The notes beneath the pieces are model-generated. The model was not told the DNA's origin. It made no database searches and was given only the letters and a program-made list of their open reading frames with translations. The position numbers were made by a program, and so were the translations under genes. Shown here piece by piece: positions 22,983 to 60,489 of a stretch of DNA of 64,000 nucleotides (its first letter is position 1; each line of letters begins with the position of its first letter). The DNA comes from Nitrosarchaeum sp. (GTDB taxonomy: Archaea; Thermoproteota; Nitrososphaeria; Nitrososphaerales; Nitrosopumilaceae), in contig BGOU01000008.1 in NCBI GenBank assembly GCA_003569705.1, positions 37,737-101,736 of the forward strand, given 5' to 3'.

Positions 22983-25900
22983 TTATTCAATTTTATCATA
23001 TGGTTCTATAGGATCTTTTGTTGTTTCATTATCTTTGAGCCATTCTAGAGTCTTTACAAATGAATCAGCTAGCTCAATAGTTGTAAGAACTGGAATTCCT
23101 AATTCAAGTGCTTTTCTTCTAATTTGATATTCATCCTCAAGCATTCCAACATATTTTTCAAGTGTTGATGTGCTAGGAATATTTATGATAAAATCTATCT
23201 TTCGTTCATAAAGCAAATCTGCAATGTTAGGTTTTCTTGTAGGTTCTGAAATTTTGTGAACTACTTCAACATCACCAATCTTTTCTTCAAAAAATTCTGC
23301 AGTATGCTCAGTTGCAACGATCTTAAATCCAAGACTTTTCAATCGTGCGATTGGTTGCAATAACTTTTCTTTATTTTGAGAACCACCAACTGTAACAAGT
23401 GCTGTGCCTGTCTTTGGGAGAGTATATCCTGCAGAAGTAAGCCCTTTAGCTAATGCATCGTAAAAGCTTGTTCCAAAGCATGCAACTTCGCCAGTAGATT
23501 GCATTTCCACGCCTAGTCTAATATCTGCCCCCTCTAGTTGCATAAAGGAGAATTGAGGTACCTTGATTCCAAAATTTGGAATTTTTTGCCATTTATTTTC
23601 AGGTAATTTGGGAAGGGGTTTACCCAAAATTGCCTTTGCTGCTAACAAGATAAGATTTGTCTTAACAAGTTTTGATACAAATGGCATAGAACGAGATGCT
23701 CTAATGTTTAGTTCAATTACATAGACATGATCATCATGAATTAGAAATTGTAGATTAAATGGTCCTTTAACATTAAACGTTTTTGCAATCTTTGTAGAGT
23801 ATTCAGTGATAGTTTCAATAGTTTTATTGTTTAGTCTCCATGGCGGAATACACATCATGGCATCACCTGAATGAACACCTGCACTTTCAATGTGTTCAAC
23901 TATGGCGCCAATTATAACATCAGTTCCATTACTGACTCCATCAACATCTACTTCTAGTGAATTTAACATGAATTTTGAGATAACTACTGGATGATCAGGT
24001 GATACATCAGTTGCTTCTTTAACATATTTTTTTAATTCATCTTGGGACCATACAACTTTCATTGCAGCGCCAGATAACACATATGAAGGTCTAACAATTA
24101 CTGGGAAACCTACGTTTTGTGCAAAACTTTTTGCCTCAGCAGTATTTGAGAATGCTTGCCATCTTGGTTGTTGAATATGTAATTTATCTAATTCCGCACT
24201 GAATTTGGAACGATCTTCTGCTCTATCAACATCATTTGCAGCAGTACCAATTATGTTAATACCATTTTTTGCAAGACCTAATGTTAAATTATTTGCAGTT
24301 TGACCTCCAACACAAGTAACTATACCTTTTGGATTTTCAAATTCTGCAATATCCAAAATTCTTTCCAAAGTTAATTCTTCAAAGTACAATCGACTACAAA
24401 TATCATAATCAGTTGAAACAGTTTCAGGATTACAGTTTACAACTGAAACATTTTTTTCGCCATTTTCTTGCAAACCCCAAACCATATTTACAGTGCCCCA
24501 ATCAAACTCTACACTGCTGCCAATACGATAAGGACCTGCGCCAAGTACGATGACGCCTTTTTCATCAGGTGTTATTTGAATATCATTTTGATTACCGCCA
24601 TATGTCAGATAGAGGTAGTTGGTAACTGCAGGCCATTCAGCTGCCAAAGTATCAATTTGCTTTACAGAAGGTAAAACACCCGCTTTTTTACGTATTTCAC
24701 GTATTTCTTCAGCAGGTTTGTCTTTTGCACGCGCAATTTGCTTGTCAGAGAATCCCATCTTTTTTGATTCCCAAAGCAAGGGAGTGTCAAGTGGCTCTTT
24801 TTTTAATTTAGATTCAATATCCACGATATTTTTGATTTTTTCAATAAACCAAGGATCAATTGCAGAAAGTCGATAGATTCTCTCAACTGAGATTCCCATC
24901 TTAAGAGCGGCTGCAACATAATACAAAATCAAATCATCAGGATGAGATAGGTGATCTTCTATTTGCTCTTCGTCATATGATTCCATATTTGCTCGATTTA
25001 GAACAAGACCGTCATTTCCAATGTCAAGCATTCGTATTGATTTTTGTAATGATTCCTCAAAGCTTCTTCCAACTGCCATAACTTCACCAACTGATTTCAT
25101 GGTAGGACCAAGTTTTCGTTTTACAAGATCAAATTTTGCAAAATCCCATCTAGGATGTTTACATACAATGTAATCCAAAGAAGGTTCAAAACAAGCAGTG
25201 GTAGATTTTGTAATTCTATTTTCTAATTCGGGCAATGTATATCCCAATCCAATTTTTGCAGACATGTATGCAAGTGGATAACCTGTTGCTTTACTTGCAA
25301 GTGCAGAGGATCGTGATAATCGAGGATTGATTTCTATTGCAACGTATCTATCAGAATCAGGATCCAATCCATATTGTATGTTACATTCACCTACAATTCC
25401 AACATGTTTTGTTGCACGCAAAGCTGCAGTGCGAAGCATGTGATATTCATGATTGTCAATTGTTTGAGAAGGTGCAACAACAATATTATCACCAGTGTGA
25501 ACTTTCATTGAAAGAACATTTTCCATATTACAAACAATTACATTATTTCCATCATAATCTTGCATCACTTCATATTCTATTTGCTTCCAATGTCCAATGT
25601 ATTCCTCAATTAGAACTTGACCCACAAGACTTGCCCTTAGCCCTCGTTCAACAATTTCGTGTAATTCAATTTCATTGTAAGCAACTCCACCTCCCTTACC
25701 GCCAAGTGTATACGCTACTCGAATAATTACAGGGTATCCTAATTCTTGAGCAATTTCTTTGGCATCTGTAAAATTTGTAACAGTTCTACTTTTTAGAATT
25801 GGAACATTGCACTGATTCATAGAGTCTTTGAAGAGTTGACGGTCCTCAGTTCTTTGAATTCCCTGAATTTGTGTGCCCAAAACATGCACTCCATACTTTT

Positions 25901-26036
25901 CAAGTATGCCTGCTTGTGCAAGATTAACACCACAATTCAAAGCAGTCTGACCCCCATATGCCAGCATTATCCCATCAGGCCTTTCCTTTTCGATAATAGA
26001 TTCTACATACTCGACATTCACAGGTAACAAATACAC
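22983..26036 (-). CDS. carB: carbamoyl-phosphate synthase large subunit (N-terminus disrupted)
   Basis: Makes carbamoyl phosphate for pyrimidines and arginine from ammonia delivered by CarA. The 1017-residue frame contains both ATP-grasp halves (first with VIRVAYTLGGKGGG, second with VIVRPSYVLSGAAM), the synthetase repeat GAGPYRIGSSVEFDWG, and the C-terminal MGS-like domain. The expected first 60-70 residues are missing from this frame but are encoded directly upstream (26037-26247), where a 22-bp insertion with a stop codon breaks the frame. The internal ATG at 26036 is therefore probably not the natural start. carA lies immediately upstream. Confidence 0.9.
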   Translation of the reverse strand: MYLLPVNVEYVESIIEKERPDGIMLAYGGQTALNCGVNLAQAGILEKYGVHVLGTQIQGIQRTEDRQLFKDSMNQCNVPILKSRTVTNFTDAKEIAQELGYPVIIRVAYTLGGKGGGVAYNEIELHEIVERGLRASLVGQVLIEEYIGHWKQIEYEVMQDYDGNNVIVCNMENVLSMKVHTGDNIVVAPSQTIDNHEYHMLRTAALRATKHVGIVGECNIQYGLDPDSDRYVAIEINPRLSRSSALASKATGYPLAYMSAKIGLGYTLPELENRITKSTTACFEPSLDYIVCKHPRWDFAKFDLVKRKLGPTMKSVGEVMAVGRSFEESLQKSIRMLDIGNDGLVLNRANMESYDEEQIEDHLSHPDDLILYYVAAALKMGISVERIYRLSAIDPWFIEKIKNIVDIESKLKKEPLDTPLLWESKKMGFSDKQIARAKDKPAEEIREIRKKAGVLPSVKQIDTLAAEWPAVTNYLYLTYGGNQNDIQITPDEKGVIVLGAGPYRIGSSVEFDWGTVNMVWGLQENGEKNVSVVNCNPETVSTDYDICSRLYFEELTLERILDIAEFENPKGIVTCVGGQTANNLTLGLAKNGINIIGTAANDVDRAEDRSKFSAELDKLHIQQPRWQAFSNTAEAKSFAQNVGFPVIVRPSYVLSGAAMKVVWSQDELKKYVKEATDVSPDHPVVISKFMLNSLEVDVDGVSNGTDVIIGAIVEHIESAGVHSGDAMMCIPPWRLNNKTIETITEYSTKIAKTFNVKGPFNLQFLIHDDHVYVIELNIRASRSMPFVSKLVKTNLILLAAKAILGKPLPKLPENKWQKIPNFGIKVPQFSFMQLEGADIRLGVEMQSTGEVACFGTSFYDALAKGLTSAGYTLPKTGTALVTVGGSQNKEKLLQPIARLKSLGFKIVATEHTAEFFEEKIGDVEVVHKISEPTRKPNIADLLYERKIDFIINIPSTSTLEKYVGMLEDEYQIRRKALELGIPVLTTIELADSFVKTLEWLKDNETTKDPIEPYDKIE

Positions 26037-26247
26037 TTTATTTGCAAATCTAGTATCTGTCTGAATTGTTGCAATGTTTGGATTGATTAAGATACTTTTC
26101 AGTCCATCTTCGTGTATTGCTTTGAGGCATTGGCTTCCGGAGTAGTCAAATTGACGGTCGTTTTTAGCGACTCTCGCCGGCTTCTCCGATTTTTATTGCC
26201 CCACTACCAAGTACAAGAATTTTTTTTATCGACTCATTCTTCGGCAG
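26037..26247 (-). pseudogene. carB: disconnected N-terminal end of carB with a 22-bp insertion
   Basis: Read on the minus strand, 26247-26173 encodes LPKNESIKKILVLGSGAI then KIGEAGE, and 26150-26037 encodes FDYSGSQCLKAIHEDG and onward into the main frame. Joined, this gives the universally conserved AGEFDYSGSQ of CarB. Between the two lies 26151-26172 (22 bp), which brings an in-frame TAA. The coding start appears to be CTG at 26247, preceded by GGAGG at 26257-26261 with 9 bp spacing; no ATG, GTG or TTG is available in frame. Error, mutation and tiny intron are all possible. Confidence 0.8.
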
Positions 26248-60350: not shown

Positions 60351-60441
60351 GGACCGGTTGTCTAGTGGTTAGGATGACGCACTCACACTGCGTAAGGAGA
60401 AATTCCCGCAAAGGTCGTGGGTTCAAATCCCACCCGGTCCA
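60351..60441 (+). tRNA. tRNA-Val (anticodon CAC) with a 17-18 nt intron-like insertion
   Basis: Acceptor GGACCGG pairs with CCGGTCC (60434-60440), discriminator A at 60441, no encoded CCA. D-arm GTCT/GGAT, anticodon stem ACGCA/TGCGT with loop CTCACAC (anticodon CAC at 60384-60386), and T-arm GTGGG/CCCAC with TTCAAAT loop all fit. Between the anticodon stem and the T-stem there are 23 nt (60394-60416) instead of 5; AAGG occurs at both ends. Removing about 18 nt leaves a normal 73-nt tRNA, so an intron near position 44/45 is likely. Confidence 0.92.
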
Positions 60442-60489
60442 CATATCCATCATATGTCCAAAAGAGAATAGTTTACAAAATCATATTGA

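Follow-up and report, generated by a model that had tools for sequence, protein, structure and literature searches.

Why should carB, the gene for the large subunit of carbamoyl-phosphate synthase, be broken after 25 codons by a short segment that carries a stop codon? The locus lies in the window, by which we mean the whole 64,000-nt stretch of Nitrosarchaeum DNA analysed here. On the minus strand it reads GCC GGC GAG (the end of GEAGE), then 22 nt (AGTCGCTAAAAACGACCGTCAA), then TTT GAC TAC (the start of FDYSG), so that the insert is flanked by the CarB residues Glu25 and Phe26. The insert shifts the reading frame and brings in a TAA in frame with exon 1, and the frame of exon 2 is open for 1055 codons to a stop at 22983. 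The parts of the gene are these:

22983..26247, minus strand: interrupted carB gene (carbamoyl-phosphate synthase large subunit), predicted spliced product 1080 aa
26173..26247, minus strand: carB exon 1, 25 codons, LPKNESIKKILVLGSGAIKIGEAGE, with a putative CTG start
26151..26172, minus strand: 22-nt insert, the predicted bulge-helix-bulge (BHB) intron
22983..26150, minus strand: carB exon 2, FDYSGSQ... through to the stop

CarB proteins of 1080 aa also occur among intronless relatives. The initial annotation had put a 22-bp insertion at exactly this place and had described in it a TAA and a GTCG/CGAC hairpin with a 7-nt loop, all of which are present. Allowing up to 3 mismatches, the insert sequence occurs once in the 1.46-Mb genome. 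Removal of 22 nt one base earlier (GA^G...CA^A) likewise yields Glu-Phe, so sequence alone leaves the border ambiguous; it is the modelled BHB geometry, described below, that selects 26151-26172.

The start codon of CarB is apparently CTG (26245-26247, minus strand), inside the end of carA and 9 nt after a GGAGG. At this position 146 insert-bearing loci have CTG (88), ATG (39), CTA (9) or AAA (6), and 56 intronless loci have TTG (32) or ATG (24).

Distribution of the insert among relatives

The initial annotation had proposed looking for the same segment in related genomes, and an insert was found at the same Glu/Phe boundary in 18 of 18 genomes of the genus (20-22 nt overall, 21 nt in some genomes and 22 in others). 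One genus genome holds a second carB (L022, G013:C35), 80% identical over residues 25-237 and with a 20-nt insert, which represents either contamination or a second lineage. Across the family the same codon boundary is occupied in 138 of 250 genomes, all 138 of them read; 84 were found with a pattern for the inner hairpin and 54 with a covariance model that was built on 52 distinct sequences and gave a match of any kind in 223 of the 250. An insert was called from model matches spanning at least 83 nt, a 63-nt span meaning no insert, and among the matches listed ten others in the family span 63 nt. All 22 genera of the family include at least one insert-bearing genome.

Beyond the family, matches of insert length were obtained in 60 of 70 genomes of a second family of the order (61 with any match; 34 read) and in 13 of 46 genomes of a third (28 with any match; 13 read). 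Another family of the order gave none in 7 genomes, 6 of which have a model match. When 398 genomes were drawn from the phylum, none of the matches listed from beyond the order has the insert, all being 63 nt. The search of four families of the order covered 43 genera, 37 of which have the insert; it is present in 211 genomes in total, with its sequence read in 185 (138, 34 and 13) and called from match length alone in 26. The 190 insert-bearing loci that were read correspond to 187 places, three having been fetched twice. The insert occurs in 24 of 80 named carB loci and is absent from the other 56, whose titles are mostly Nitrosopumilus, marine group I or Nitrosopelagicus.

Over the 190 loci the inserts measure 20-27, 30, 33 or 40 nt, and at none of them could the insert be read through, that is, have a length divisible by three and no stop. 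In three loci of the second family (L380, L391 and L394) an enlarged intron loop gives inserts of 33, 30 and 40 nt, with the inner helix and exon flanks retained.

A stop-bearing insert of 22 nt in a conserved gene looks at first sight like damage, whether from faulty sequencing or assembly or from a mutation that recently disabled the gene in a single strain, and many of the named comparison records are metagenome assemblies. We nevertheless give this explanation next to no credence: 185 genomes of three families have the insert at one and the same place, with differences that preserve the structure, several carriers are single-contig genomes (e.g. G001, G002, G082, G117), and exon 1 is strongly selected as protein. 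The same conservation disposes of two alternatives left by the initial annotation, an assembly error and a strain that lacks this carB, and establishes the insertion as real. Because the insert is conserved in 18 of 18 genus genomes and at 190 loci with structure-preserving changes, a chance origin is excluded.

Presence and absence are interleaved within the order. Three genomes (G029, G042, G229) give a carB model match without the insert, or the score of such a match, and have insert-bearing congeners; in g13 and g14 (family f1) and g27 (f4), many genomes have the same insert-less match beside carriers. Such insert-less genes beside carriers in one genus suggest repeated precise loss. A gene tree of exon 2, made by a quick method with long branches flagged, requires at least 12 changes of state over 218 rows (147 with and 71 without the insert), the starred branches forcing 4; it leaves out 5 of 20 fetched intronless stretches, all outside the order, which the search expression did not match. 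The tree supports repeated change in what would be the intron's history, in a form that fits loss and gain alike.

Predicted structure of the insert and its flanks

The insert and its flanking codons can be drawn as a BHB motif with the following elements:

26168..26171, minus strand: inner helix, 5' strand GUCG, paired in 146 of 146 distinct sequences
26157..26160, minus strand: inner helix, 3' strand CGAC
26161..26167, minus strand: terminal loop CUAAAAA, containing the in-frame UAA; length and sequence vary in relatives
26175..26178, minus strand: central helix, 5' strand GGCG (exon 1)
26153..26156, minus strand: central helix, 3' strand CGUC (intron end); first pair missing in 24 of 146
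26172..26174, minus strand: 5' bulge AG^A, cut predicted past the second nucleotide
26148..26152, minus strand: 3' side loop AA^UUU, cut predicted past the second nucleotide
26180..26188, minus strand: outer helix, 5' strand (exon 1), CGGAG.AG.C, one mismatch
26138..26147, minus strand: outer helix, 3' strand (exon 2)
26198..26202, minus strand: outermost helix, 5' strand GGGGC (exon 1), from RNAalifold, constrained third positions
26124..26128, minus strand: outermost helix, 3' strand GCCUC (exon 2), from RNAalifold, constrained third positions

With some variation in letters among relatives, the consensus runs from the outer strand CGGAG.AG.C through the central GGCG, the bulge AR^A and the inner GUCG to the loop, and back through CGAC, the central CGYY and AA^UUY to the outer strand of exon 2. 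RNAalifold, applied to 52 distinct sequences, returned the same 16 pairs, together with a further U-G pair and the outermost helix GGGGC/GYCUC. Of 146 distinct sequences, 122 have a central helix of 4 bp; in the other 24 it has 3 bp, the first pair being G x A. What was found is a BHB in relaxed form, with a 4-bp helix, a 3-nt bulge on the 5' side and, in place of a 3-nt bulge, a 5-nt loop on the 3' side. Cuts at AG^A and AA^U would, on this model, remove exactly 26151-26172 and so restore the Glu-Phe junction that intronless relatives have. The initial annotation had held that no BHB could be built at a border that preserves Glu-Phe; it was right that the strict form is lacking, but the GGCG/CGUC helix, the AG^A bulge and the AA^UUU loop do give that border.

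The inner helix is paired in 584 of 584 cells of 146 distinct sequences, against a mean of 512 and a maximum of 525 in 1000 shuffles, 84 of the genomes having come from a search pattern in which GGCGAR and the inner helix are preset. Its second pair occurs as U-A, C-G or U-G, its third as C-G, U-A, A-U, G-C or U-G, and its fourth as G-C or A-U. Two-sided changes number 55 cells in 87 sequences, counted in an alignment fitted to the model, against 18.0 +/- 5.7 in shuffled alignments, 0 of 500 of which reach 55. The inner helix is thereby conserved through compensatory change. Wider relatives were taken in because the 52 closest sequences by themselves gave no two-sided change; in the full set, the changes seen in the outer and central helices are all one-sided and of the GU kind.

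Energy models of single sequences give a different picture. The 61 nt around the site in the window fold no better than shuffles (z -0.95), and the pairing probability of the central helix is 0.06 in the window, where the 190 loci average 0.55; in silico, a rival pairing, CGG/UUG, competes with the central helix of the window's own copy. The BHB core falls within 2 kcal/mol of the minimum-energy fold at 0 of 190 loci (mean -13.8 against -26.9), a comparison given little weight, the outermost helix having been omitted from the core. It is comparison of sequences, and not folding of a single one, that is decisive for the predicted carB BHB.

A hairpin in the gap between two exons that belong to one protein would also suit a ribosome that skips the insert by programmed bypass or frameshift, as at phage T4 gene 60, and differing gap lengths would be tolerable to such a mechanism. 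Bypass of the gene 60 type requires that the take-off and landing codons match. Here exon 1 ends in the codon GAR, whereas in 184 sequences the insert ends in CAA, TAA, AAA, CAG, CAT, AAG, TAT or AAT and never in GAR. Lengths of 20-27, 30, 33 and 40 nt exclude a fixed frameshift, and the BHB cut sites coincide with the borders of the insert. We therefore regard bypass as very unlikely, and retain a BHB intron as the preferred reading. A group I or group II intron was rejected on size, the inserts being only 20-40 nt; the ribozyme core of such introns is well over 100 nt.

Codon constraint and selection on the exons

The third codon positions of the exons follow the predicted pairing. In insert-bearing genes (110 distinct sequences) the mean entropy of third positions is 0.35 bits at 10 paired sites and 1.15 bits at 10 unpaired sites (one-sided Mann-Whitney p = 1.2e-4); in intronless genes (55 distinct sequences) the same two sets of sites give 0.98 and 0.74 bits and do not differ (two-sided p = 0.26). 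Carriers have GAC TAC TCC nearly fixed, where intronless relatives have mostly GAT TAT TCT. Two sites of the outermost helix, at -28 and +27 nt relative to the insert, have 0.78 and 0.60 bits in carriers against 1.77 and 1.87 bits in intronless genes. Sites -28, -16, -13, -10, +6, +9, +12 and +27 lie outside the GGCGAR and inner-helix search pattern.

Exon 1 is also under strong selection at the protein level. Over its last 17 codons, 4000 random pairs drawn from 184 distinct sequences differ by 24,477 synonymous changes and 3,270 that alter the amino acid, and the first codons of exon 2 behave likewise, amino acids being kept and synonymous sites varying. A pseudogene was rejected on the same count, which gives no sign of relaxed selection.

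This bears on whether CarB could be made from exon 2 alone by internal initiation, with exon 1 and the insert as a leader or dead remnant. Two database proteins, P0014 (named Nitrosarchaeum) and P0023 (named Nitrosotenuis), are N-terminally truncated CarBs that start downstream of the insert, and the first start listed for the window is a GTG at 26036. Yet the first in-frame start past the insert is unconserved among relatives (codon 39 in 82 of 184, elsewhere in 77, none within 60 codons in 25), and the conserved amino acids and variable synonymous sites of exon 1 and early exon 2 speak against a remnant, which makes internal initiation extremely unlikely. Because exon 1 is protein and no internal start is conserved, exon 1 has to be brought together with exon 2, and the simplest place for this is the mRNA.

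The hairpin might instead be a conserved mRNA element, such as a regulatory leader, with translation stopping at about 27 residues and carbamoyl phosphate obtained otherwise. The beginning of carB suits a regulator, and the conserved 85-nt structure, exon parts included, exceeds what a bare BHB needs. Such a leader leaves unexplained the 1055 open codons of exon 2, the exact restoration of Glu-Phe at the borders and the simple absence of the insert from intronless relatives; the other matches to the CarB N-terminus in the genome are the second half of carB itself and weaker partial hits, at 29-33% identity. The probability that we attach to it is vanishingly small.

Database proteins

Among the best 120 proteins of either protein search, none that covers the junction is more than 90% identical to this CarB, so no listed record documents splicing of carB. 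An intact junction is present in 156 of 240 listed CarB proteins, 28 of which are nearer to an insert-bearing than to an intronless locus; most of these are distant or have short alignments, the clearest being P0018 (95.5% against 80.2%). P0018, P0016, P0011, P0013 and P0100 have the intact Glu-Phe and are nearer to insert-bearing loci. The 28 were set aside as evidence because either cDNA or intronless relatives could have supplied them. The predicted tryptic peptide spanning the Glu-Phe junction is IGEAGEFDYSGSQCLK.

Splicing machinery and other predicted introns

The genome has two PF01974 genes, for subunits of the splicing endonuclease, and an RtcB gene. For the first PF01974 protein, of 178 aa, the best alignments are with 3p1z_B, 2cv8_A and 3ajv_B, PDB chains of A. 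pernix and S. tokodaii, whose aligned Tyr, His and Lys it retains, presumably the catalytic residues of the endonuclease; the second (187 aa) is without the His. The first also retains the Lys matching position 44 of 3p1z_B, which the available text of PMC6379350 describes as the residue in a crenarchaeal loop needed for relaxed substrates. According to the text available from PMC4090602, the splicing endonuclease of Thaumarchaeota is of alpha2beta2 type. By gene presence, this organism probably has both endonuclease and ligase, with the assembly of the two subunits presumed.

Six stretches picked for a long tRNA match were run through ARAGORN, which predicted anticodon-loop introns of 14-50 nt in five of them; one of the five, in a 'stop' tRNA, is not credible. 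The sixth is a tRNA-Val(CAC) at 60351-60442 of the window (plus strand, 92 nt); its predicted intron is 60395-60412, and once these 18 nt, just past the anticodon stem, are removed, the tRNA measures 74 nt and its variable loop is normal. On inspection, the segment has a UGCG/CGCA central helix at its borders and a GGA/UCC inner helix, and it is predicted to be a non-canonical BHB intron of the size class of the carB insert.

Proposed mechanism

We conclude that the 22 nt in carB are very probably an ancient BHB pre-mRNA intron of the order, cut by EndA and joined by RtcB. The tiny archaeal intron that the initial annotation had offered as one possibility is the reading favoured by the evidence; the removal itself we infer from sequence. 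The tRNA-splicing endonuclease would cut at AG^A on the 5' side and AA^U on the 3' side, and RtcB would seal GAG to TTT. The spliced mRNA, read from the upstream CTG, would give full CarB of 1080 aa, while the unspliced mRNA would give a peptide of only about 27 residues.

A bolder claim is that the insert is the second established intron in an archaeal protein gene, the first found order-wide outside Crenarchaeota, and that it has been kept for gating CarB output; we hold this tentatively and think it rather unlikely. The 85-nt stem, made of intron and exon bases at codon 25, would then act as a switch between a dead end of about 27 residues and full CarB, and the tRNA-splicing capacity of the cell would set the supply of pyrimidine and arginine. 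Splicing as a gate on CarB supply is speculation.

Relation to known systems

The closest known case is the cbf5 intron of Crenarchaeota (Desulfurococcales, Sulfolobales). As described in the available text of PMC2738675, cbf5 introns lie in a protein gene, are mostly relaxed BHBs with predicted cuts at their borders, past the second bulge residue, and are associated with a hetero-oligomeric endonuclease and a common origin with lineage losses; these are likenesses to what we propose for carB. The same text treats introns in other archaeal protein genes as predicted and unconfirmed (PMC2738675). In the text available from PMC7714728, cbf5 mRNA is the only additional BHB intron reported, to which the HVO_1309 5' UTR is added. 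The carB insert differs from the cbf5 intron in gene and phylum, in its 20-40 nt placed after codon 25, in an outer stem to which both exons contribute bases, and in its occurrence in ammonia oxidisers, mostly organisms of moderate temperature. Splicing of cbf5 has cDNA support, whereas that of carB is inferred. With carB as host gene in place of cbf5, the gene for an RNA pseudouridine synthase, membership in the cbf5 intron family was rejected: the insert would work alike and is not a member.

Archaeal tRNA introns of BHB or relaxed (hBH, HBh') form share the 4-bp helix between two cleaved bulges (PMC6379350, in the text available) and short length, 11 to 175 nt (PMC2738675, likewise), and are processed by the same enzymes as proposed for carB; the host of the carB insert is by contrast an mRNA, and its outer helix is made from codons and not from a tRNA stem. 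The BHB in the 5' UTR of HVO_1309 in Haloferax volcanii is, in the text available, also an mRNA substrate of the splicing endonuclease (PMC7714728). That site differs in lying in an untranslated leader, where no protein is interrupted, and the enzymes of Euryarchaeota differ in being alpha4 or alpha2 (PMC4090602, in the text available). The 12-bp putative introns of an archaeal virus (Peng et al.) are likewise very short and inside protein genes, but they are inserted during infection, their splicing is putative, and the available text of PMC2738675 reports no conservation across families.

A carB intron was not found in the literature covered, which comprised titles, starts of abstracts and passages; the passages available from PMC12397907 and PMC13149111 hold nothing on carB.

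Implications

In the passages of the literature examined, no archaeal protein gene other than cbf5 is named as having a confirmed BHB intron. If our reading is true, carB would be a second case, in a central biosynthetic gene, and would make archaeal mRNA splicing general and testable. It would also explain why CarB is N-terminally truncated in databases for some carriers, and it advises a check for BHB motifs whenever 20-40 nt interrupt the frame of an archaeal gene, before an error is assumed. The carriers belong to an ecologically important order in which the intron has apparently been lost repeatedly, and with cultured members in the group, the carB intron would offer a clean system for the study of intron gain, loss and function.
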